From Prolixibacteraceae bacterium (GTDB lineage: Bacteria; Bacteroidota; Bacteroidia; Bacteroidales; Prolixibacteraceae), in NCBI GenBank assembly GCA_028282705.1, contig JANQHI010000006.1:1-64000 (forward strand): a stretch of DNA of 64,000 bases, given 5' to 3'. How positions within the stretch are numbered: the first letter of the stretch is position 1; every line of letters starts with the position of its first letter. The notes under the pieces were generated by a model. That model did not search any database. It saw only the letters and a list, made by a program, of their open reading frames with translations, and had not been told where the DNA came from. Position numbers and translations under genes: made by a program. Positions 18,275-27,345 of this stretch are shown in pieces.

Positions 18275-18348
18275 GGGGCTATAGCTCAGTTGGCTAGAGT
18301 GCTTGACTGGCAGTCAAGAGGTCACGGGTTCGACTCCCGTTAGCTCCA
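18275..18348 (+). tRNA. tRNA-Ala (anticodon GGC)
   Basis: A full cloverleaf is visible: acceptor GGGGCTA with TAGCTCC (one G-T pair), D arm GCTC, anticodon stem CTTGA/TCAAG with loop CTGGCAG giving anticodon GGC, and T arm with GGTTCGA. The CCA end is not encoded. The last 14 bases are duplicated 9 kb away as the att repeat of an integrated element, so the tRNA stays intact but has lost its original downstream terminator, which now lies at 27315. Confidence 0.97.
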
Positions 18349-18350
18349 CA
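18335..18350 (+). repeat. att site, left copy, within tRNA-Ala
   Basis: TCCCGTTAGCTCCACA, identical to 27299-27314. It covers the 3' half of the T arm and acceptor stem plus two bases, the usual crossover location for tRNA-targeting tyrosine integrases. Confidence 0.92.
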
Positions 18351-18705
18351 GTTTTCTTTGATTAACAGTATTTTACAGTGATATTAGCCAACATTTAGCC
18401 AACCATTTATCAAAAAGCTTCTTTAATCATTTGAATTTTTAGCGGCCTGGGGATCATATAGGACTGGTGTATGAGGTATCAAAAAAATCGGATAAGTTAG
18501 TGACCGCTCCTTTCTTCTTGCGAAGGTGGTATAACTTACCCGAAATCTTAAATGTAAAGTTATAGTATTCAAATGTGATTAACAACATTTGGTTATCAAT
18601 CACTTACTAAATATCCCGGAATATAAATGAGAAAAGCTTTAAATGTAGTAACCTAAATTATATTAAGATGCTGACAAGTTTTATGGATTGTTTATAGAGA
18701 AGATT
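18351..18705. other. non-coding left end of the element with inverted repeats
   Basis: No gene is visible. Besides the arm repeat it contains a layered hairpin at 18493-18538 (TAAGTTA/TAACTTA, then ACC/GGT, then CCTT/AAGG around a 10-base loop) and a 7-bp inverted repeat CAAATGT/ACATTTG at 18570-18591, partly nested in GTGATT/AATCAC. These may be recombination-protein sites or a structured RNA; the sequence alone does not decide. Confidence 0.5.
18383..18405 (+). repeat. left arm-type repeat pair of the element
   Basis: Two tandem TTAGCCAAC units 11 bp apart, 33 bp inside the left att copy. The same 23-bp arrangement, with T for the first C of each unit, lies inside the right end (27139-27161) in the same orientation. 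Repeated motifs at both ends of a tRNA-integrated element are expected for the arm-type sites bound by the integrase N-terminal domain. Confidence 0.65.
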
Positions 18706-18999
18706 TTATTTAAGTTGTTTTAGAAGGTGTTCCAAGTCCTGACGAGATTGTATCTTATATATATTCCCATTATATTCTATAAAGCCATTTAACTCGAATG
18801 TAGATTCATTTGATTTAGCAAATAATTCCCAAACTTCTACGCCTAATGCTTCTGAAATGTTTTTAAGCGTAGATAAGGTTGGATTACCTTTTGGAGCCAG
18901 AACCCTCGTGAGGGATTCTCTGGCTATTCCCATTTTTTCAGCAAGGTCCTTTAATTTTATATTCTGTTTTTTACATATTTCTTTAACAATTAGAGTCAT
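18706..18999 (-). CDS. XRE-family repressor-like regulator
   Basis: 97 residues. The helix-turn-helix spans about 5-65 (KQNIKLKDLAEKMGIARESLTRVL, NPTLSTLKNISEALGVEVWELF). The C-terminal FIEYNGNIYKIQSRQDLEHLLKQL is a tail often attached to this type of regulator in Bacteroidota. It is transcribed away from the plus-strand small-gene operon that begins 150 bp further on, the arrangement of a repressor controlling a divergent promoter, and is the best candidate for the element's master regulator. Confidence 0.8.
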   Translation of the reverse strand: MTLIVKEICKKQNIKLKDLAEKMGIARESLTRVLAPKGNPTLSTLKNISEALGVEVWELFAKSNESTFELNGFIEYNGNIYKIQSRQDLEHLLKQLK

Positions 19000-19091
19000 G
19001 ACGTAATATTGTAAGTTATCCTATAAAGATAATAAATTAACAATAAAATCAATTAAATGTAACTCTTAGTATCACTTTCCGGTTAAAAATT

Positions 19092-19122
19092 TTTGAATTT
19101 ATTGATTTATAATATATCTTTG
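19092..19122 (+). promoter_or_regulatory. promoter of the element's plus-strand operon
   Basis: TTTG at 19092-19095, 19 bases, then TATCTTTG at 19115-19122, a full consensus match; the first ATG is 28 bases downstream. It lies in the 151-bp region shared with the divergent XRE gene and is therefore a likely target of that regulator. Confidence 0.65.
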
Positions 19123-19150
19123 AGTAACATATAATATCACATCGAATAAA

Positions 19151-19315
19151 ATGGATTATAGACAAATTGAAATAGCAAAACAAAATTACATCAGAATAAA
19201 TGGCATTAAATGGTATTTAGAGAAATATCTTGAATACCTAAAAGCAAGTACGTTTTTAACACAAAAAGAGATTTTTGAGAAATACTATTCTGTTAGAAAC
19301 GAATTATATAAATAA
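19151..19315 (+). CDS. small protein, 54 residues, function unknown
   Basis: Too short for the supplied track. Starts MDYRQIEIAKQNYIRINGIK and ends VRNELYK; rich in Tyr, Lys, Glu and Ile and predicted helical. It is the first gene after a consensus promoter and is followed 8 bp later by another small gene, which supports it being real. No family recognised. Confidence 0.6.
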   Translation: MDYRQIEIAKQNYIRINGIKWYLEKYLEYLKASTFLTQKEIFEKYYSVRNELYK

Positions 19316-19323
19316 TATTCACA

Positions 19324-19542
19324 ATGGATTTTGAACTATTTAAATTCAGAACTACAACATTGGCAAATGAGTCAAAGCAAATAAAAAGAAATTTTGACTT
19401 AGGCTTAATACCAGGTGAGGAAGCACTGGAGAAATTAGATGTAATTGAAGGTAAACTCTTAGTCCTCATTAATGATATTGATAACTGTAATGGTAAGTCA
19501 AAACAAGTGTTTGGCAGAACCTTATCTTTTAGCTCCAATTAG
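19324..19542 (+). CDS. small protein, 72 residues, function unknown
   Basis: Starts MDFELFKFRTTTLANESKQI, helical and charged, with LGLIPGEEALEKLDVIEGKLL in the middle. It is in the plus-strand operon under the 19092 promoter, with short spacers on both sides. No motif recognised; small early regulatory or anti-repressor proteins are common at such positions but that is only an inference. Confidence 0.6.
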   Translation: MDFELFKFRTTTLANESKQIKRNFDLGLIPGEEALEKLDVIEGKLLVLINDIDNCNGKSKQVFGRTLSFSSN

Positions 19543-19558
19543 ATTTAACTAGAATATT

Positions 19559-20029
19559 ATGGAAACACAAGAAATTACTTACACAAATCTCCAAGGAGGA
19601 GAGACTAAATTATCAATTTGTGGGAATTCGATAAAAATTGGAATTTCAACGTTGGACTTAGCTTACCTGGATGATCTATTTGACATAGATACCCCTGAAG
19701 CTTTTGCTAATGCAATCGAGGGATTAGTTTTTGGGTGTTCTCAAATAATATCAGAGGCAACACTGGAAGGTATCAATATTTCTGGTATGGTACCAGCGTC
19801 CATGGATTTTCATATTGCAAAACACATGGTCAAAGCGTTAAGAAAAATTGAGTTCAAAGAGCCAAAGTATGGACCTGAAAGCTGCACAATGGATGAACAA
19901 ATTAAAAGCCTAACCAACCAGGTAGAATATTTAAAAGATGTAAACAAAACATATGGAGAATTCATTGACCGTCATTTACCCGGAGCCCCAAATCAAACAC
20001 ACTTAAAAGTTGTCCACCAAGCAAAGTAA
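19559..20029 (+). CDS. unknown protein, 156 residues
   Basis: Begins METQEITYTNLQGGETKLSI. The first half looks alpha/beta, the second has a helical segment with heptad spacing (MDEQIKSLTNQVEYLKDVNKTYGEFI, about 115-140) that could form a coiled coil. Third gene of the plus-strand operon in the element, 16 bp after its neighbour. No family recognised. Confidence 0.65.
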   Translation: METQEITYTNLQGGETKLSICGNSIKIGISTLDLAYLDDLFDIDTPEAFANAIEGLVFGCSQIISEATLEGINISGMVPASMDFHIAKHMVKALRKIEFKEPKYGPESCTMDEQIKSLTNQVEYLKDVNKTYGEFIDRHLPGAPNQTHLKVVHQAK

Positions 20030-20075
20030 TTTTTGGTTCAAAATATTTTTATTACAAATCATAAAAGCATGAGCT

Positions 20076-20369
20076 ATGGAAAACCCATTTGAAGTTATTT
20101 TAAAAGAAATTAAGCACTTGAATAATAAAGTGGATCAATTAACTAAAAAGATTGAAACACTTCAGAATAAGGGATATTCTGACCCCTATAAGCTTTTAAG
20201 TGCTGAAGATGTCATGAATGAAATGGATTGGAGCCGAATGACTTTACATCGTAGATTATATGAAAGTGATACTAGCCTCCCAATGGTTAAAGATGGGGGT
20301 AAGTTAAAAATCACCAGGGCAAAATTTGATAGATATAAAAGAGAAATCTATGGAGATAATAAGCCTTAG
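20076..20369 (+). CDS. coiled-coil plus helix-turn-helix DNA-binding protein
   Basis: 97 residues. An N-terminal coiled-coil (LKEIKHLNNKVDQLTKKIETLQNK) precedes a MerR/excisionase-like helix-turn-helix (LLSAEDVMNEMDWSRMTLHRRLYESDTSLPMVKDGGKLKI, about 42-82, ending KFDRYKREIY). Such proteins act as excisionases or small transcription factors in Bacteroidota mobile elements, so the element may have two of them (see 23865-24164). Its end overlaps the next small ORF by 20 bases. Confidence 0.7.
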   Translation: MENPFEVILKEIKHLNNKVDQLTKKIETLQNKGYSDPYKLLSAEDVMNEMDWSRMTLHRRLYESDTSLPMVKDGGKLKITRAKFDRYKREIYGDNKP

Positions 20370-20508
20370 AATCGACCCTAAGAGGCTTTCTGGAGGTGAG
20401 CTTCAAGAAATAAGGAGGATAAAAGGGAAAATTATGAACAAGATAAAGCTATCTGCCAAGGAGGCTAGTTTTTTATCAGCTATGCAACAAAGAAGTAATA
20501 ATTTTTGA
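20350..20508 (+). CDS. small protein, 52 residues, function unknown
   Basis: From ATG at 20350, inside the end of the helix-turn-helix gene; the track starts earlier at a TTG. Lysine-rich and helical (SGGELQEIRRIKGKIMNKIKLSAKEASFL). Overlap suggests coupled translation, but at this length chance cannot be excluded. A weak hairpin (CCTGAA/TTCAGG at 20544-20558) follows and may end the plus-strand transcript. Confidence 0.4.
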   Translation: MEIISLRIDPKRLSGGELQEIRRIKGKIMNKIKLSAKEASFLSAMQQRSNNF

Positions 20509-20579
20509 TGTCAATCCAATTCTGCAACCTGTATAAATTTTTTCCTGAAGTGTTCAGGATCCCATTTTTTAGAGCTCAT

Positions 20580-21170
20580 TTATCCTATTTTTTGTTCGCA
20601 ATCCTTTGGATACATAAGCACACCATTTTGTCTTAAATATTCCTTGGTTTTTTCCTTAGTGTCCTCACTTATTTCTCCCCGACCATTATCAGGCATCATA
20701 ATAATGCCAGGACTATTTTCTTTGTCGTTGCCGCCGGCAATATCATTTAATCTTACCATAATATTTGCCCCTGTCCTAATGGCTACCAAGGCATCACGGT
20801 TGGTGATGTTTTTGTGGGGATTATTTTTAAAGCTATTTTGAATTACAGAGGTACCTATTTGGGTTAGCTGAACCCCATATTTATATACTTCAGCTAGATC
20901 ATTAGCTCTTGCTTCAATTATTTGCTCCTCCGCAGTAAAATCCTCATTGTGGGCATTTTTTGCAATAGCAAACTGGACTATCTGCTGTAACAGCATATCC
21001 CAATCACCGTCTTTGGACCAACGAGAAATTGTAGTATGTGTAATCTTTTTGGAATATTCCCTTTCGATTTCATTAGTGATATCCCTCAAGGAATACTGTC
21101 TTTTACCTTCGCTATCCCTAGATAAGTAAAGGGATTTCGCAAAATCTTTGATTGTTTGACTAGCTGCCAT
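20580..21170 (-). CDS. terminase small subunit-like DNA-binding protein
   Basis: 196 residues from the ATG at 21170 (MAASQTIKDF); the track start lies inside the upstream gene. The N-terminus has AKSLYLSRDSEGKRQYSLRDITNEI then THTTISRWSKDGDWD, that is, a helix-turn-helix ending in the tryptophan-containing turn typical of phage small terminase subunits that recognise packaging sites. A helical middle and an acidic C-terminus follow. No large terminase is present. In phage satellites a lone TerS redirects helper-phage packaging; a simple transcription regulator is the alternative. It is the last gene of the long minus-strand series. Confidence 0.6.
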   Translation of the reverse strand: MAASQTIKDFAKSLYLSRDSEGKRQYSLRDITNEIEREYSKKITHTTISRWSKDGDWDMLLQQIVQFAIAKNAHNEDFTAEEQIIEARANDLAEVYKYGVQLTQIGTSVIQNSFKNNPHKNITNRDALVAIRTGANIMVRLNDIAGGNDKENSPGIIMMPDNGRGEISEDTKEKTKEYLRQNGVLMYPKDCEQKIG

Positions 21171-21189
21171 GTTGTTGTAACATTTTAAA

Positions 21190-21450
21190 TTAAGAAGTTT
21201 CAATCTTTGGAACATTCCCTGAAATGATGTCATCAAAAGAGCAAAATTGATAATATCCCTGCTGTAATTCGTTTAGGGTGATCAAGGCTTCTTCTGAGCC
21301 ATGATATAATACTTTAAAAGTAGGCCTCTTTTTTACTGTACCACTTTGATTTGAAAACAAGTTAAATCCAAGTATCTCTCCAGGAACACCTGGCTTAAAG
21401 GAATGATCAGGGTTCACTCCAACTATATAAGCTTTCTTTAAATTTTTCAT
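21190..21450 (-). CDS. unknown protein, 86 residues
   Basis: Starts MKNLKKAYIVGVNPDHSFKPG and contains GVPGEILGFNLFSN and ITLNELQQGYYQFCSFDDIISG. The beta-rich pattern resembles small conserved proteins that sit beside phage packaging or structural genes, but no family is recognised. Seven bases separate it from the upstream gene and 19 from the terS-like gene downstream. Confidence 0.6.
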   Translation of the reverse strand: MKNLKKAYIVGVNPDHSFKPGVPGEILGFNLFSNQSGTVKKRPTFKVLYHGSEEALITLNELQQGYYQFCSFDDIISGNVPKIETS

Positions 21451-21457
21451 TATCCAT

Positions 21458-22156
21458 TTAATTTAATAGTTTAAAAACCTCAGGATTTGGGTGATATCCT
21501 TGTTCATCACAAATAAATAACTCGTCAAATAGAACATTATCTTCTATCTCCCAAAACTGCTGCATTACTTCATTTACGATGCCACAGGCTTTCAAAGCTT
21601 GCTCATAAGCTTTAACTTGCTTTTCATTTTCAAGATTAACAGTGAAATATGATTCTTTGATGATTTTCCAAGATTCGGCCGATACAAAGACTTTTCCCTT
21701 TTCAATAGAAAGATATCTGGCATCTAATGCTTCACCAGGCAAGTTGAGTAAAAAAGGGCTACTATACAAACGCTTTAGCTCATCAGTGGCTTTATTTAAT
21801 AGAGTAAAATCATCATGGTACTTGGGATTATTTATATTCTTCTGCTCTAAGTGGTGAGACTCAGTCAGGTCCATCCTTACAATTTGTCCTGAAGAAACTT
21901 TATTATCTTCCCTCAACTGACCTTTGAGTATATTCTTAACTTTTACTTCAAGTGGCGCTTTGTCAAGGGTTGCCTCATATGCTTTAATGACTTTTGATCC
22001 CCCATTTACCTGGTCAAGTACCAGTTCTTTGGATGGAACTATGCCCAAACTGGTTAGCTCATCAGCAATTTGCTGATATTTTGGAATTAAGAGTTTCCAC
22101 TCACTCTGGCATTTTTCAAATGCCTGTTGGTTGAACGATATTTGTTTTTTCATCAT
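21458..22156 (-). CDS. unknown protein, 232 residues
   Basis: Mostly helical, starting MMKKQISFNQQAFEKCQSEWKLLIPKYQQIADEL, with a possible domain LNLPGEALDARYLSIEKGKVFVSAESWKI in the middle. No motif or family recognised. Its start codon overlaps the stop of a 26-codon ORF (ATGATG/TGA), consistent with translational coupling along the element's minus-strand operon. Its place between the replication module and the terS-like gene suggests a role late in the element's cycle, as an inference only. Confidence 0.65.
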   Translation of the reverse strand: MMKKQISFNQQAFEKCQSEWKLLIPKYQQIADELTSLGIVPSKELVLDQVNGGSKVIKAYEATLDKAPLEVKVKNILKGQLREDNKVSSGQIVRMDLTESHHLEQKNINNPKYHDDFTLLNKATDELKRLYSSPFLLNLPGEALDARYLSIEKGKVFVSAESWKIIKESYFTVNLENEKQVKAYEQALKACGIVNEVMQQFWEIEDNVLFDELFICDEQGYHPNPEVFKLLN

Positions 22157-22233
22157 GATACAGTTTTAGATTCAGCCCATTTTTCAAGGTCAGATTGGAA
22201 TTCTTCCTGTAACTTTTCATCCTCTGAAGCCAT
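22153..22233 (-). CDS. possible 26-residue peptide
   Basis: MASEDEKLQEEFQSDLEKWA and six more residues. It starts 17 bases before the end of the preceding small ORF and stops within the start codon of the following gene. The acidic, amphipathic composition and double overlap make translation plausible; its length makes it uncertain. Confidence 0.35.
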   Translation of the reverse strand: MASEDEKLQEEFQSDLEKWAESKTVS

Positions 22234-22384
22234 CCTTTATTTTTAAATAATCTTCTTCTAAATCATTTACTACTGTATTGATATCGGTATCACTATCTAC
22301 TGTTATACCTTTTAGAAGAATCAAGGGAATGTTTTTTTTCCTTAGTTCATCTGAGATTTGTGTCAATTTTAAATTCGTGCTCAT
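22217..22384 (-). CDS. small protein, 55 residues, function unknown
   Basis: Not in the track. Starts MSTNLKLTQISDELRKKNIP and ends YLKIKDGFRG; acidic and helical after an initial short beta-like part (LILLKGITVD). It lies between two other small genes of the same strand with short spacing. No family recognised. Confidence 0.5.
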   Translation of the reverse strand: MSTNLKLTQISDELRKKNIPLILLKGITVDSDTDINTVVNDLEEDYLKIKDGFRG

Positions 22385-22412
22385 ATCTGTCTAAATTTTT
22401 AGTGGTAATTAT

Positions 22413-22583
22413 TTAATTACAATTCGTTTCCAATAGGTTAATTGTGTCTATCTTTTCATCAATCAAATCACAGATTTTCCGTAATCTAGTTGTATCAAAA
22501 CTTCCTGTTACAATTGTTTTTGATTCTTCAATCAAAGTTTCAATTTCAATGTTCAATTCATATATTTTATCTTGCGTTTCCAT
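22413..22583 (-). CDS. small helical protein, 56 residues
   Basis: From ATG at 22583 (METQDKIYELNIEIETLIEE); the longer track start is replaced because the coding pattern begins here and the upstream gene ends at 22597. Heptad-like Ile/Leu spacing suggests a short coiled coil. Thirteen bases after the helicase loader gene. Unknown function; small proteins after a loader may modulate replication. Confidence 0.5.
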   Translation of the reverse strand: METQDKIYELNIEIETLIEESKTIVTGSFDTTRLRKICDLIDEKIDTINLLETNCN

Positions 22584-22596
22584 TGTACCAAGTGCA

Positions 22597-23208
22597 TTAT
22601 TTCCGCATGCTTTCACCCGAAAACTTTATTACTTTACACAGTCGCCTTATTCTGTCCAATGTTCGGACCCCATACCGTTCAAGTACCTGAGAACTATCAA
22701 GGTTTGTTGATACAAAGAGTATTTTTGATTGCGTTTCGGCTAAGTTGAATAGCCTATTAATAGGCTCAAATTTAGATCCGTAGTCGTTGTGGACCGGCTC
22801 ACATCCCATTTCATCAACTGCAATAAACTTCTTGGTTTTTAAGTGTGGAAGTTTAGCTCCTAGTTCTTCAGCAAGCACTGTTTTTACTACCTTTTTTTTG
22901 AAATGGTAGAAGATCAAGGGTATGACATGAAATATGATATCCGTTTTTCCTCTACCTACATCACCAGTTAGAAAAAGCCCCTTGCCTTTTGTGTTTATCA
23001 TCCATTCTACAACTTGTTCATACTCAGGTATCCAAATAAATTCCTCAATAGTTTGATCAACGGAAAGAATTGCATTTTCAAGTATTCTTTTGCATAATCC
23101 AGCATTTCCAAAGCTAAAGGATGGAAATTGCCTTGTATTAAACTCAAAATTGTCTTTTAGTACATTTACAGACTGGCGAAGTGCTATATTTCCTTCAAAA
23201 TCCTGCAT
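22597..23208 (-). CDS. DnaC/IstB-like ATPase, probable helicase loader
   Basis: 203 residues of AAA+ type, with Walker A GDVGRGKT near residue 79, Walker B KKFIAVDEMGCEP near 127, sensor-like LFVSTNLDSSQ near 165 and an arginine-rich end (RTLDRIRRLCKVIKFSGES). It overlaps the initiator gene upstream by 14 bases. Initiator plus loader is the layout of lambda O-P and of many phage replication modules: the loader brings the host DnaB helicase to the origin. IstB of IS21 is related but no IS21 transposase is present. Start taken at ATG 23208 rather than TTG 23214. Confidence 0.82.
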   Translation of the reverse strand: MQDFEGNIALRQSVNVLKDNFEFNTRQFPSFSFGNAGLCKRILENAILSVDQTIEEFIWIPEYEQVVEWMINTKGKGLFLTGDVGRGKTDIIFHVIPLIFYHFKKKVVKTVLAEELGAKLPHLKTKKFIAVDEMGCEPVHNDYGSKFEPINRLFNLAETQSKILFVSTNLDSSQVLERYGVRTLDRIRRLCKVIKFSGESMRK

Positions 23209-23848
23209 TCTCAACTATTTTTTGCTTTTCAGCTTCATCCTTTGGTTTCATAATTTGACCAGTATCATGTGGCTTTTTCTGATTTGAAAATTTAAGTTCA
23301 TTGTCCTTCCATCGCCGTAACCTTTTTTTAGTGTCCCAGGTTCTTTCAAGCTGCCACCTGATTTTAGTATTAGATTTGTTTGGCTCAGACCAGTAATCAT
23401 AAAACTTCTGAACCATTTCATTTCCGTATTCTTCAATGAAAGGGGTTAGTGTTTCATAAAATGCTTTTTGAATTTCTTCAATATCTACTTTAGTATAGTT
23501 CTTTTTTATACCCTTTTTTATTACTTCCTTTTTTTCAGGGATACCTATCCCTATTGGTATACATACCCTACTCAATATTTCTGAGGATACCCTATCCCTT
23601 TTTATATGGATACCTATCCTCTTTTTTCGGGATAGGTTGTTTAGGATTACTGAAGCTCTTTTTTTTGTTATGCCGAAAAATTTCGCAAACCAAGAATTTG
23701 AAGCAATACACTCTTGACCATTCGCTGAAAATGAGATAATTATGCTTAAAAAAGTCTTTTCTGTAAGATTTAAATCTTTCATTTCCCAAACCTCTCTTGG
23801 TATCCAGATACCTTTAAATTCGGCAATATCATCCTTCTCTATTGCCAT
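23195..23848 (-). CDS. winged-helix replication initiator-like protein
   Basis: 217 residues from ATG 23848. The N-terminal winged helix covers about 12-70 (GIWIPREVWEMKDLNLTEKTFLSIIISF, ASNSWFAKFFGITKKRASVILNNLSRKKRI). A middle linker (about 71-126) is encoded by the iteron and AT-rich tract. The C-terminus (130-200) contains FYETLTPFIEEYGNEMVQKFYDYW and RWQLERTWDTKKRLRRW, as in phage and plasmid replication proteins. It precedes and overlaps the loader gene. Initiation of the element's own replication is inferred from domain order, the internal repeats and the neighbour. Confidence 0.75.
   Translation of the reverse strand: MAIEKDDIAEFKGIWIPREVWEMKDLNLTEKTFLSIIISFSANGQECIASNSWFAKFFGITKKRASVILNNLSRKKRIGIHIKRDRVSSEILSRVCIPIGIGIPEKKEVIKKGIKKNYTKVDIEEIQKAFYETLTPFIEEYGNEMVQKFYDYWSEPNKSNTKIRWQLERTWDTKKRLRRWKDNELKFSNQKKPHDTGQIMKPKDEAEKQKIVENAGF
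23460..23637. other. candidate replication origin inside the initiator gene
   Basis: Three inverted repeats GGATA-CC(C)-TATCC lie at 23539-23550, 23585-23597 and 23608-23619, with a related GGTA-TACA-TACC at 23556-23567 and a half-site GGGATAGG at 23629-23636; centres are roughly 17-30 bp apart. On the downstream side (coding sense) they adjoin about 75 bp of purine-strand-biased AT-rich DNA (23460-23537). Iterons plus AT-rich tract in the middle of the initiator gene is the architecture of the lambda origin in gene O. Confidence 0.65.
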
Positions 23849-23864
23849 ATTGAAGATTCCATTA

Positions 23865-24164
23865 TTAAACACTCAAAGGTTGGATTGCAGCCTCAACCTC
23901 ACTACGTTTATAATAAACCCTATTGCCCAAACCGTATGCTTTGAGTTTGCCTCTCTTGGTCCAGTTGTGGACAGTTGAAAGGTCAACATTGAGCAGGTTT
24001 TTTACTTCATTCCTGGTCATAAAGGTTTCAGGCTCTTTGGGCTGAAATTCCTGTTTAAGCTGCTTTATTTCTGCCTTCACGCCTGAAAGAATAGCATCTT
24101 GCAATTGTTCAGGGGTAATCTGGATGAATTGCACAGCCCTTTGAGGTAATTTATCATTTTGCAT
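23865..24164 (-). CDS. excisionase-like helix-turn-helix protein
   Basis: 99 residues. The C-terminal half is a MerR-type HTH_17/excisionase domain: FMTRNEVKNLLNVDLSTVHNWTKRGKLKAYGLGNRVYYKRSEVEAAI (about 50-96). The N-terminal half is a helical region (LPQRAVQFIQITPEQLQDAILSGVKAEIKQLKQEF). It sits just upstream of the initiator gene, and a palindrome covers its start region, suggesting autoregulation. In satellites the equivalent protein (Xis/AlpA) directs excision and activates the replication operon. Confidence 0.78.
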   Translation of the reverse strand: MQNDKLPQRAVQFIQITPEQLQDAILSGVKAEIKQLKQEFQPKEPETFMTRNEVKNLLNVDLSTVHNWTKRGKLKAYGLGNRVYYKRSEVEAAIQPLSV

Positions 24165-24190
24165 TTTAAATACATTTAATATTTAAATGC
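24161..24190. promoter_or_regulatory. palindrome overlapping the start of the excisionase-like gene
   Basis: GCATTTTAAAT and ATTTAAATGC are near-perfect inverted copies, with a second palindrome CATTTAA-TAT-TTAAATG nested within. The location over the start codon and ribosome site suggests an operator, with the excisionase-like protein or the XRE regulator as possible ligand. Confidence 0.4.
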
Positions 24191-24251
24191 AAGATCGGGA
24201 GGTATGCGTCTTAAAATTCAGACAGAATAGGAGTTTTGTTACGACAAACTA

Positions 24252-25061
24252 TTAATTGGTGGAATTAGGGTTAAGTACATCTTTTTTTATTCTTTGGTAC
24301 CTATTAAGCCTTTCATTTGTTTTACACACATCATATGTTTTTATTTCAGTGGGGGATTCAAGATCAGAAAAATTATTTTCAAACCAGGTTTTATAATTTC
24401 CTGGTTTAATATGGTCATATATAAAACCATCTTGTTCAAAAGACATTACACGATATATGAAACTATATTCTCGAATATATTTTTTATCATCTGACTCTTT
24501 AATAAAATTTATGAAAATCCTAAAATAATCTTCCTTCTTGAAAATTTCAGGGTGCCAGTTTTTATCTGTTTCTCTTTCTTTATTGTTTGACAATGCAAAC
24601 TCAACTTGAACACTACTTATTACTTCATTATTTTTATGAAAATGAAAATCAAGGGTTGAATCAGTGTAAGAATTGATATTTCGCATTACAATATTAGTAA
24701 AATCAAGATTTTTATAAATGGAACAATTTTCTGAGACTTCCATTATTAAACCATTAAGGGTAAGTTTGCAATTATTGACATAATTGAAATCAGTTTCGTT
24801 ATCAAATGCAGATATACCTTTAGAGACAAGGCCTAAATTATAATCTTTTCCATCATTGAATAATCGATTAAATACTGTATTCAGAAAACCACTTCTGCTG
24901 GTATTATTATGCAGTTGATACAATTCATCAATAACACTATTTGTAGCTTCAGATTCCAGTCTGCACCAATCAATTGAGTCTCCATTCCGAACTTTTTTAT
25001 CATCATACATTCCATTTAAAATATTGATGAGATCAAGATATGTATAATTAGATTTTCCCAT
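24252..25061 (-). CDS. unknown cargo protein, 269 residues
   Basis: No family recognised. It is Asn- and Asp-rich and mixed alpha/beta, with segments TLDFHFHKNNEVISSVQVEF near the middle and FRIFINFIKESDDKKYIREYSFIYRVMSFEQDGFIYDHI towards the end. There is no signal peptide or membrane helix, so it is cytoplasmic. It sits between the toxin-antitoxin pair and the excision/replication genes. In satellites accessory genes near int often give the host protection against phages, so a defence role deserves a test; nothing in the sequence proves it. Confidence 0.65.
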   Translation of the reverse strand: MGKSNYTYLDLINILNGMYDDKKVRNGDSIDWCRLESEATNSVIDELYQLHNNTSRSGFLNTVFNRLFNDGKDYNLGLVSKGISAFDNETDFNYVNNCKLTLNGLIMEVSENCSIYKNLDFTNIVMRNINSYTDSTLDFHFHKNNEVISSVQVEFALSNNKERETDKNWHPEIFKKEDYFRIFINFIKESDDKKYIREYSFIYRVMSFEQDGFIYDHIKPGNYKTWFENNFSDLESPTEIKTYDVCKTNERLNRYQRIKKDVLNPNSTN

Positions 25062-25110
25062 TAAATATCTTCAGTACTAGAATTCATATTGGGTTGTTAG
25101 TGAATTGATT

Positions 25111-25413
25111 TTAAATTGGTTGTAGGTCAAAATTAACTTTTGCTCCCAATGCTGCCGCAATTTTATTAATAGTTGCAAGGGTTAGGTTGAATTTACCGTT
25201 TTCAATCTTTGATATCTGACCCTTTTCCATGCCCAATTTTTCAGCCAGTTGGCTTTGAGTTAAATGCTTCTTTTTCCGTAATTCCTTAAACTTGAAAGCA
25301 AGTATATCAGCCTTTAATTCATTTTCAAATTTGATTCTTGCTTCTGTCCCTTTCTCCCCAATAAATCGGTCAAGTACCTCATTATGCGATATTGTTTTCA
25401 TTCCCTTTTTCAT
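25111..25413 (-). CDS. XRE antitoxin of a HigBA-type system
   Basis: 100 residues: a helical N-terminus (NEVLDRFIGEKGTEARIKFENELKADILAFKFKEL) and an XRE helix-turn-helix (RKKKHLTQSQLAEKLGMEKGQISKIENGKFNLTLATINKIAAALG). It overlaps the toxin gene by four bases (ATGA) and comes second, the order characteristic of HigBA. It should neutralise the toxin and repress the pair. Presence in the element would favour its retention. Confidence 0.85.
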   Translation of the reverse strand: MKKGMKTISHNEVLDRFIGEKGTEARIKFENELKADILAFKFKELRKKKHLTQSQLAEKLGMEKGQISKIENGKFNLTLATINKIAAALGAKVNFDLQPI

Positions 25414-25736
25414 AGCCCTAAATATTTTTTTCTTAACTGCTCTGCTTTATCAATCTCTCTTTTAGGTGTCTTCTGTGTTTTCTTTGTAATTCCATGGGTG
25501 CAAATTACCAAAGTGTTTTGCTGCTTATCCCAAAAGGCAAATAAACGATACTCATTGCTATTATATTCTGCCCGAAACTCCCAAATGTTACTGCTCTTTA
25601 ATTTCTTGAATATCCGTGGGTCATTTATTTCTTGTGATTTGGAAATATTGAAGAATAATTTTTCAGCTGCTTTTAGTTCAATACTTTCCAAGAACTCAAT
25701 TGCGCTAGGCAAATATTTTACATTAAATCGTTTCAC
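25410..25736 (-). CDS. RelE/HigB-like toxin
   Basis: 108 residues with the RelE/ParE fold pattern: YLPSAIEFLESIELKAAEKLFFNI, then IWEFRAEYNSNEYRLFAFWDKQQNTLVICTHGITKKTQKTP and a lysine-rich last helix. Members cleave mRNA at the ribosome. The core strand EFRAEYNSNEYRLFAFW retains basic and aromatic residues used in catalysis by relatives. It is followed with overlap by its antitoxin. Confidence 0.85.
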   Translation of the reverse strand: MKRFNVKYLPSAIEFLESIELKAAEKLFFNISKSQEINDPRIFKKLKSSNIWEFRAEYNSNEYRLFAFWDKQQNTLVICTHGITKKTQKTPKREIDKAEQLRKKYLGL

Positions 25737-25795
25737 TATACAAAGATATTAAAAGTTGAATTATATTGCAACATGGAAGTTAAATAATTATCCTG

Positions 25796-27094
25796 CTAGT
25801 TTGCCTTTTTAATAACTGCCATGGGGGTTTTATCATTGGCTCTTAGTTGATGCTTACTCCAGTATTCAGCTATTTGCAATGCAAAATCATTTGTGGTTTT
25901 ACCAATGTATTCTAAAAATTGTTGTTCTGTACTGTGAGCTGTAATACTCATCAAAAGTGCTGTTGGTATCTCTCCATAAAAATTACTGGCAAAGGATCTG
26001 CGGCACACATGGGAGGTAATTAATTCATACTTTGGATATATCCCTTGTATTTTCCGCCCAATTTCCTTATCCATTTTGGCTCCATCTGTCGGTTCATTTA
26101 TTTCAGCAATTTTACAAAGGTCCTTCAGGTGTTTATTGAATTTTTGTGCTGATAGTTGGGTTGGGAATTGCCCGTTATGTTTATCCAATATTCCCTTTAT
26201 TTTGGGGTGTATGGGAATGGCAACCCTTTTCCCTGTCTTTTTTTGGGTGAACTCAATCAATTCTATCCCGTTTCTTACTTTAATGATGTTGCATGTGAAA
26301 GCTAGCAAGTCGGAAACCCTTTGTCCAGTATAACATCCTATAATCAACCAATCTTTTGCATTCTCAAGAGCTGTCCTTTTATAAATTGTTGTCTCTATTT
26401 TGGATAGTTCATCAAAGGTCAAAAATACTTTAGAAGCTTTTTCAGTAAAACCTTTGATTTGCTTTAGCTGCTTGCTTACTTCATACCCATTTAATTGCGC
26501 ATCAAGACATATTGTTTTTAAAAATCGGATATACCTGCCTGCAGAGTTAGGGTTCAACTTATCTCTTTCAATGAGGTATTTTAAAAAATCATTCCTGAAT
26601 TTTAAATCTACATTTTTAACATAGAAGTGTTTTTTCTTATGTTTCTGATAAGCTCCAATTTTGTTTTTAAGTGTGGTATATTTTTGAATAGTTCCAATTG
26701 CAACACCTCTTTTACCGTTTGGGAATTCTTTATATGGTAAATTGTCAATATAAAGCTGAACGTAGTTGGTAAGTAAGTCTTTATCCGTTTTGTCCTGCTT
26801 GCCAGTGATAGAATTTATTTGTTCATGCAACCAATTACCAGATATTTCAATTCCATTTGTAGTAGCTGAATTACAGCGTTTTTCTATTTCCGTTTTTAGA
26901 TTGCTTAAATCTGTTTTTAAGTTTTTCAGGTTTGTATCTTTGGGTATGGGGAGGTTTGTTTTTCTACTCCAGTTTTTAGGATCAATAATATACCCTGTTT
27001 TTCTTTTAAATACATTTTTACGGCTTATTGATAAGCGGACATAGATATTGGCCGGGTTATTTTGACTCTGTAGCAGGTAACTTATGGTGGCCAT
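25796..27094 (-). CDS. tyrosine recombinase (integrase) of the element
   Basis: 432 residues. An N-terminal arm-binding domain (1-80, NIYVRLSISRKNVFKRKTGYIIDPKNW), a SAM-like core-binding domain (about 105-215) and a catalytic domain. The catalytic residues are Arg in CYTGQRVSDLLAF, the H-x-x-R set in SHVCRRSFASNF, the later His in TAHSTEQQF and the nucleophile Tyr in FLEYIGKTT. It lies at the right end of the element facing inward, 205 bp from the att copy. The arm-type repeats overlap its promoter region, which would allow self-repression. Confidence 0.95.
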   Translation of the reverse strand: MATISYLLQSQNNPANIYVRLSISRKNVFKRKTGYIIDPKNWSRKTNLPIPKDTNLKNLKTDLSNLKTEIEKRCNSATTNGIEISGNWLHEQINSITGKQDKTDKDLLTNYVQLYIDNLPYKEFPNGKRGVAIGTIQKYTTLKNKIGAYQKHKKKHFYVKNVDLKFRNDFLKYLIERDKLNPNSAGRYIRFLKTICLDAQLNGYEVSKQLKQIKGFTEKASKVFLTFDELSKIETTIYKRTALENAKDWLIIGCYTGQRVSDLLAFTCNIIKVRNGIELIEFTQKKTGKRVAIPIHPKIKGILDKHNGQFPTQLSAQKFNKHLKDLCKIAEINEPTDGAKMDKEIGRKIQGIYPKYELITSHVCRRSFASNFYGEIPTALLMSITAHSTEQQFLEYIGKTTNDFALQIAEYWSKHQLRANDKTPMAVIKKAN

Positions 27095-27127
27095 TATTGC
27101 TATAAACTTTAGTGATTTGAACAGGTG

Positions 27128-27158
27128 TAAATATACAAATTAGTCAACATTTAGTCAA
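27128..27158 (-). promoter_or_regulatory. candidate integrase promoter overlapping arm repeats
   Basis: On the minus strand TTG inside one arm repeat, 20 bases, then TATATTTA, a seven-of-eight match to the -7 consensus. Integrase bound to the arm sites would cover it. Moderate match only. Confidence 0.35.
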
Positions 27159-27161
27159 CCA
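27139..27161 (+). repeat. right arm-type repeat pair of the element
   Basis: Two tandem TTAGTCAAC units 11 bp apart, a 21-of-23 match and same orientation as 18383-18405; both differences are C-to-T at the equivalent position of each unit. It lies 138 bp inside the right att copy and upstream of the integrase gene. Confidence 0.65.
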
Positions 27162-27298
27162 AATTACAATTTATTTCAATTTGATTAAATCCTATTCAAT
27201 TATAACCTTTCCTGTATATCTTTATATATAAGAGATTATAAGGGCTATGCTTAGTTTTTTGCAATGTTTTAGGAGCCTGTGAAATTTATAGTTTCTGT

Positions 27299-27314
27299 TC
27301 CCGTTAGCTCCACA
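27299..27314 (+). repeat. att site, right copy
   Basis: Perfect copy of the tRNA-Ala 3' end (TCCCGTTAGCTCCACA). The upstream bases do not continue the tRNA, so this is the element-side junction, and chromosomal DNA resumes after it. Confidence 0.92.
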
Positions 27315-27345
27315 AAAGCTACAACTGGAAAGTTGTAGCTTTTTT
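27315..27345 (+). terminator. original tRNA-Ala terminator, now displaced
   Basis: AAAGCTACAACT, loop GGAA, AGTTGTAGCTTT and a T-run form a perfect 12-bp rho-independent terminator that directly abuts the right att copy. Excision of the element would place it right after tRNA-Ala, so it is almost certainly that gene's native terminator. Confidence 0.9.

Follow-up and report, generated by a model that had tools for sequence, protein, structure and literature searches.

Where does a small integrated element that encodes its own replication initiator and helicase loader keep its replication origin? The question is raised by a gene found in a window of 64,000 nt from a Prolixibacteraceae bacterium (GCA_028282705.1, contig JANQHI010000006.1, positions 1 to 64,000, forward strand), the window being the whole stretch of DNA that was analysed. 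The element very probably carries the origin inside its own initiator gene (Rep), as phage lambda does. More precisely, the locus is read here as the theta-type intragenic origin of an element of about 9 kb in a tRNA-Ala gene, working in the manner of ori-lambda with an initiator of the HTH_36/phrog_270 type, and a probability of roughly 0.87 is attached to this reading.

Three perfect palindromes of the form GGATA-N2/3-TATCC occur within 81 bp inside the initiator gene, accompanied by a GGATA half-site (+ strand) at 23630 and by a related repeat, GGTATacATACC (the GGTATACATACC palindrome), at 23556-23567 of the + strand. A previous sequence-only reading had pointed to all of these sites, which are indeed present, and the cluster is unique in the 64 kb, no other group of at least three palindromes with the same arms occurring within 130 bp anywhere in the window. 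At the scale of the 4.29 Mb genome the palindrome motif occurs 19 times, three of these occurrences being located in the array. Upon shuffling of the synonymous codons, the protein being held constant, at least three copies of any such palindrome were obtained in 1 of 10,000 permutations.

The organization of the sites was delineated with a blind periodic-array finder, which scores by information content four or five 12-mers at gaps of 20-24 bp, a range set after a first look at relatives and before the periodic scoring of the window gene. Its picks in the initiator gene were AACAACCTATCC, GGATAGGTATCC, GATAGGGTATCC, AGTAGGGTATGT and GGATAGGTATCC, starting at 0, 22, 45, 69 and 91. The full array consists of five iterons distributed over 23539-23641, with start-to-start spacings of 22, 23, 24 and 22 bp (Table 1), the best four copies being separated by 23, 24 and 22 bp. 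Since the blind search places the fourth iteron on AGTAGGGTATGT, the GGTATACATACC site is off register: the related repeat exists but is not the array member that it had been taken for. The five-copy score was equalled in none of 10,000 protein-preserving codon permutations and the four-copy score in one of 10,000. With both strands searched, the array ranks as the top periodic array of the whole element, and no second array was seen in the element. Near-identical iteron DNA is read in two frames, giving RIGIH and GIGIP on the one hand and DRVSS and SRVCI on the other, so that the repeat exists at the level of the DNA and does not correspond to a peptide repeat. Generic repeats counted in the initiator gene alone, without any spacing rule, were not significant under codon permutation for 10-mers with one mismatch and weak for exact 8-mers (2-4% of the permutations), owing to the dominance of poly-A and composition in such counts. 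The iteron array, its regularity and its excess over coding constraint are observed features of the gene, which contains at least three directly repeated, regularly spaced sites beyond what coding imposes.

Table 1. Coordinates of the features discussed in the text (positions in the window).
Feature	Positions	Strand	Description
attL-like repeat, 16 bp	18335-18350	+	TCCCGTTAGCTCCACA; 3' end of tRNA-Ala(GGC) 18275-18349
DnaC-like helicase loader	22597-23208	-	ATG at 23208 (read from the sequence); phrog_3277 4.5e-19, phrog_50 2.2e-13
Initiator gene (Rep)	23195-23848	-	ATG at 23848 (read from the sequence); HTH_36 N-terminus and C-terminal domain
AT-richest 60 nt of the initiator gene	23467-23526		Candidate unwinding element; begins 12 nt 3' of the array (gene direction)
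Iteron 5	23539-23550	-	GGATAGGTATCC; + strand a perfect GGATA-CC-TATCC
Iteron 4	23561-23572	-	AGTAGGGTATGT; degenerate, in register; supersedes the previously proposed GGTATACATACC site
Iteron 3	23585-23597	-	GGATAGGGTATCC; + strand GGATA-CCC-TATCC
Iteron 2	23608-23619	-	GGATAGGTATCC; + strand a perfect GGATA-CC-TATCC
Iteron 1	23630-23641	-	AACAACCTATCC; degenerate, TATCC half alone kept; assigned from the five-copy periodic array
Excisionase-like HTH_17 gene	23865-24164	-	Upstream of Rep; PF12728 1.2e-12, phrog_66 1.3e-10
Tyrosine integrase	25796-27094	-	PF00589, PF13102; phrog_216 1.5e-17
attR-like repeat, second copy	27299-27314	+	Exact match to the attL-like copy

The AT-rich DNA announced beside the array was recovered as well, the segment 23460-23537 being 78% AT as compared with 67% for the initiator gene and 64% for the window, and the AT-rich tract adjoins the iterons. 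Directly downstream, and overlapping the 3' end of Rep by 14 nt, comes the gene that had been described as DnaC-like, an assignment borne out by its matches to phrog_3277 and phrog_50. With respect to the layout, the comparison with lambda holds. Used as a positive control, lambda O returned its annotated iterons exactly in the blind test (starts 0, 20, 44 and 67, record 39034; spacing 20, 24 and 23 bp), the AT-richest 60 nt beginning 8 nt past the iterons versus 12 nt in the window, and gene P returned nothing. The rep gene of Tuc2009, which is annotated as containing its own origin, gave a weaker signal (z 4.0) with its AT-richest tract elsewhere.

The initiator itself belongs to another family than that of lambda O. 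The N-terminus of Rep matches PF13730 (HTH_36; E 1.6e-6, 28.2 bits against a cut-off of 25), phrog_270, annotated as 'replication initiation protein', is matched by the protein at 1.8e-8, and the C-terminal part hits phrog_19415 (1.4e-22), a family also represented in Riemerella and Cellulophaga phages, where the genes of these proteins likewise stand before one for a helicase or loader. The winged helix with the G-W-I-P motif, of which Rep keeps WIP, and the loader gene located directly downstream are both found, and on its profile matches Rep is a member of the HTH_36/phrog_270 initiators. The idea that it would be lambda-O-like by sequence had to be abandoned: neither a match to Phage_rep_O (PF04492) nor a match between profiles was found (hhalign probability 0.2%), whereas lambda O itself matches PF04492 at 5.7e-36, and membership of the lambda O family is rejected. 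The lambda P family is similarly rejected for the loader, the downstream gene encoding a DnaC-like AAA+ protein. No close relative of Rep was found among viral contigs, GTDB genomes and contigs, and phages.

An AlphaFold2 model of Rep, built from a 27-member alignment, predicts with confidence a winged helix covering residues about 17-97, with helices at 27-39, 50-57 and 61-73, the last of which is the predicted recognition helix, and wing strands at 77-83 and 90-97, followed by a low-confidence linker (105-119) and a C-terminal helical part. A Foldseek search with Rep yielded generic winged-helix matches alone, none with an E-value below 0.001. The array codes for residues about 69-102; as modelled, iterons 1-4 thus correspond to the tail of the recognition helix together with the wing, and the linker is coded only by iteron 5 and the AT-rich tract. 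The proposal that the repeats code for the linker between the two domains accordingly stands for iteron 5 and the AT-rich tract and falls for iterons 1-4. The distance from the WIP motif to the start of the array is 187 nt, against a family median of 249 nt, and no other significant member of the family has its array so far 5'.

The layout was surveyed in a family set of 75 dereplicated genes, the window gene included, mostly originating from viral contigs and assembled from phage and genome initiators collected with tblastn together with 106 viral-contig loci; the sample is not random, because the viral loci were gathered with two query phages. Single phage proteins served as queries, because ten initiators, once aligned, proved too dissimilar to yield a usable search pattern. 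Homologues lacking the repeats would have spoken against an origin at this place, and most genes went the other way: 60 of the 75 contain iterons in the same place, as a periodic four-copy array at 20-24 bp with p<=0.01 under codon permutation (48 of them at 0/500), and 15 show no array at that threshold. Among the controls, the threshold was passed by 3 of the 52 downstream genes and by none of 20 further genes in the window, and an array persists in 42 of 55 family genes when the large TTCGG group is left aside. When all central spacings between 11 and 35 bp were tried, the family gave a sharp peak at 22-23 bp (mean z about 4) and values near 0 at 18-19 and 25-31 bp, with a smaller excess at 11-12 bp, i.e., half of the 22-23 bp period. 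The family arrays begin, at the median, just 3' of the winged helix, their copies lie in more than one reading frame in 59 of the 60 cases, and all 60 are followed by an AT excess in the next 50 nt, the AT-richest 60 nt being found there in 72% of the genes versus 11% expected. Iteron sequences differ among the groups of the family (CCCCTTCGGAAA, GGGGTATTCAGG, GGTAGTTCC, CGAAAACGTGA and others), and the more alike two recognition helices are, the more alike their iterons tend to be, once similarity in the remainder of the domain is allowed for (partial Mantel r 0.35, P 0.001), a correlation in which shared ancestry partly remains.

In the intragenic origin proposed here, the element would first be excised from tRNA-Ala, and the N-terminal winged helix of Rep would then bind the five GGATAGG(G)TATCC iterons spaced 22-24 bp apart. 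The resulting nucleoprotein complex would open the AT-rich tract located just downstream, where the C-terminal domain of Rep and the co-encoded DnaC-like protein would load the replicative helicase of the host. Binding, melting, helicase loading, excision and replication are all put forward here on the grounds of sequence.

The same array might be viewed as an intragenic operator, by which Rep or another regulator of the element would shut off the transcription of rep and of the loader gene without any role as an origin. Three perfect palindromes are typical of dimeric regulators, and several HTH regulators are encoded by the element. However, operators seldom consist of five copies 22-24 bp apart with an AT-rich tract behind them, and 60 of the 75 family genes show the layout with iterons of unrelated sequence, while autoregulation would be compatible with origin function, which leaves the purely regulatory explanation improbable.

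The element that carries the array spans about 9 kb (18335-27314), is integrated in tRNA-Ala and, on its gene content and its ends, is a satellite-like or plasmid-like element of Bacteroidota. Directly after the attR-like copy lies a hairpin (27314-27343, fold z -4.7), probably the displaced terminator of the tRNA. The genes for Rep, the loader, the integrase and the excisionase-like protein are all intact open frames, and no virion, large terminase or conjugation gene was recognisable in the element. Relatives of two other genes of the element were not found in 60 related genomes, nor was an empty integration site found, the flanking genes not being syntenic in the two same-genus contigs examined. 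The element may be defective, and one could conceive that the array is a former origin, real but no longer working in a decayed element, in keeping with the missing virion, large terminase and conjugation genes and with two degenerate iterons. The intact frames, the exact att repeats and the three perfect iterons argue against such a decay, which appears slightly less probable still than a mere operator.

An artefact of coding, in which a protein stretch rich in I, G, R and P would yield similar DNA words by chance, could be suspected from the generic repeat counts, weak or not significant under codon permutation, but it is very improbable in view of palindrome (1/10,000) and periodic-array (0/10,000) statistics that lie beyond permutation, of iterons read in two frames and of a layout that recurs across the family. 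Palindromic repeats beside replication genes are also found at centromeres, yet a partition (parS-like) site or a cluster bound by a host factor instead of the initiator is just as improbable, since no ParA or ParB gene was recognised among the element proteins scanned, the place inside the initiator gene with adjoining AT-rich DNA suits an origin, and differences among the iterons go along with differences in the recognition helix of the initiator.

Comparison with known systems situates the proposed intragenic origin. In lambda the origin occupies the central part of gene O, its iterons adjoining an AT-rich tract (PMC7466680), and it shares with the element iterons 20-24 bp apart in the initiator gene, at or just past the winged helix, AT-rich DNA on the 3' side and a loader gene next to it. 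It differs by a lambda P-like loader instead of a DnaC/AAA+-like one, by four iterons instead of five, and by the array of the element lying mostly within the part coding for the winged helix. The HTH_36/phrog_270 initiators of phages and phage-plasmids, namely Skulduggery, HU1, vB_LspM-01, GJ44 and the Aureibacter plasmid pAT5, possess a homologous N-terminal domain, an intragenic array at 20-24 bp and AT-rich DNA 3' of it, with other iteron sequences and C-terminal domains and with arrays usually located about 60 nt later. In RepA_N plasmids the Rep boxes, which constitute the origin, are central in rep, and in pPR9 a pfam13730 (HTH_36) initiator N-terminus has been swapped together with the origin region and supports autonomous replication (PMC5703833), so that pPR9 offers, by analogy, a functional precedent for an intragenic origin of the HTH_36 type. 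These plasmids differ by their copy control and by a C-terminus contacting the DnaG primase, and no DnaC-like loader partner is described there. In SPP1, gene 38 contains oriL, the site to which gp38 binds, and gp39 is the loader; direct repeats, an AT-rich DUE, the location of repeats (in SPP1 those of oriL) within the gene for the initiator and a co-encoded loader, in SPP1 that of the phage, are all shared (PMC6316719), whereas the initiator is another one and SPP1 has a second origin, oriR.

As the precedents of lambda, SPP1 and RepA_N/pPR9 make the intragenic origin a known kind of arrangement, and as the layout is common to most of the related phage initiators open to the test, the locus is best seen as a good instance of something known and not as a novel kind. 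A probable lambda-style intragenic origin is now placed in a small integrative element of Bacteroidota. No systematic account of the layout for HTH_36 initiators was found in the literature searched, most subscription journals lying outside its scope. It seems somewhat better than an even guess that the layout is found across several bacterial phyla, in phages and plasmids as well as in small integrative elements, in which case one gene could suffice to predict both the origin and the specificity of the initiator, and that the wing of the element's initiator is encoded by the very DNA that it would bind. Such a rule would make origins easy to predict in phages not yet characterised, and would offer natural initiator/iteron pairs for the study of changes in winged-helix specificity and possibly replicons for the genetics of Bacteroidota. 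The free Bacteroidota plasmid pAT5 of Aureibacter tunicatorum (L151:2471-3313), which served beside lambda O as a positive control, encodes an HTH_36 initiator whose gene contains a strong array (z 6.6) immediately followed by AT-rich DNA, and is a ready candidate replicon.

The element that carries the array resembles PICI-like satellites (PMC13376191) by its size of about 9 kb, well below 20 kb, by its integrase, its excisionase-like and replication genes and its att repeats in a tRNA gene, and by the lack of virion genes. It differs from them in having no recognisable small terminase, capsid-remodelling gene, primase or known satellite marker, and no helper is known. The gene at 20580-21161 (-) encodes an HTH followed by a coiled coil, small-terminase-like by eye alone; no family or phage match was found and the model is of low confidence (pLDDT 41), so that a small terminase is not supported at this place, where it would have made the element a packaging satellite. 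A toxin-antitoxin-like pair occupies 25111-25736 (-), in which a RelE/HigB-like gene (25410-25736; phrog_2523 5.8e-18, PADLOC NsnC match 1.7e-10) overlaps an HTH antitoxin gene (25111-25413). A 269-aa protein encoded at 24252-25061 (-) has no match in Pfam, PHROGs and PADLOC.

Some relatives of the replication genes display other arrangements of repeats. The initiators of Riemerella phage CRP5 (L007:812-1492) and Cellulophaga phage phi19:3 (L008:2590-3255), which share the C-terminal domain of Rep, contain tandem repeats of 12/24 bp coding for linkers of the DTVTDTV type; these are possibly in-frame iterons, which codon permutation cannot separate from peptide repeats. Among the relatives of the loader, the closest (36% identity, locus L128:657-2085) comes after an initiator whose N-terminal domain is different and whose gene has its own intragenic array of the CCGAGGTT type, a combination that suggests an exchange of domains around a conserved layout.
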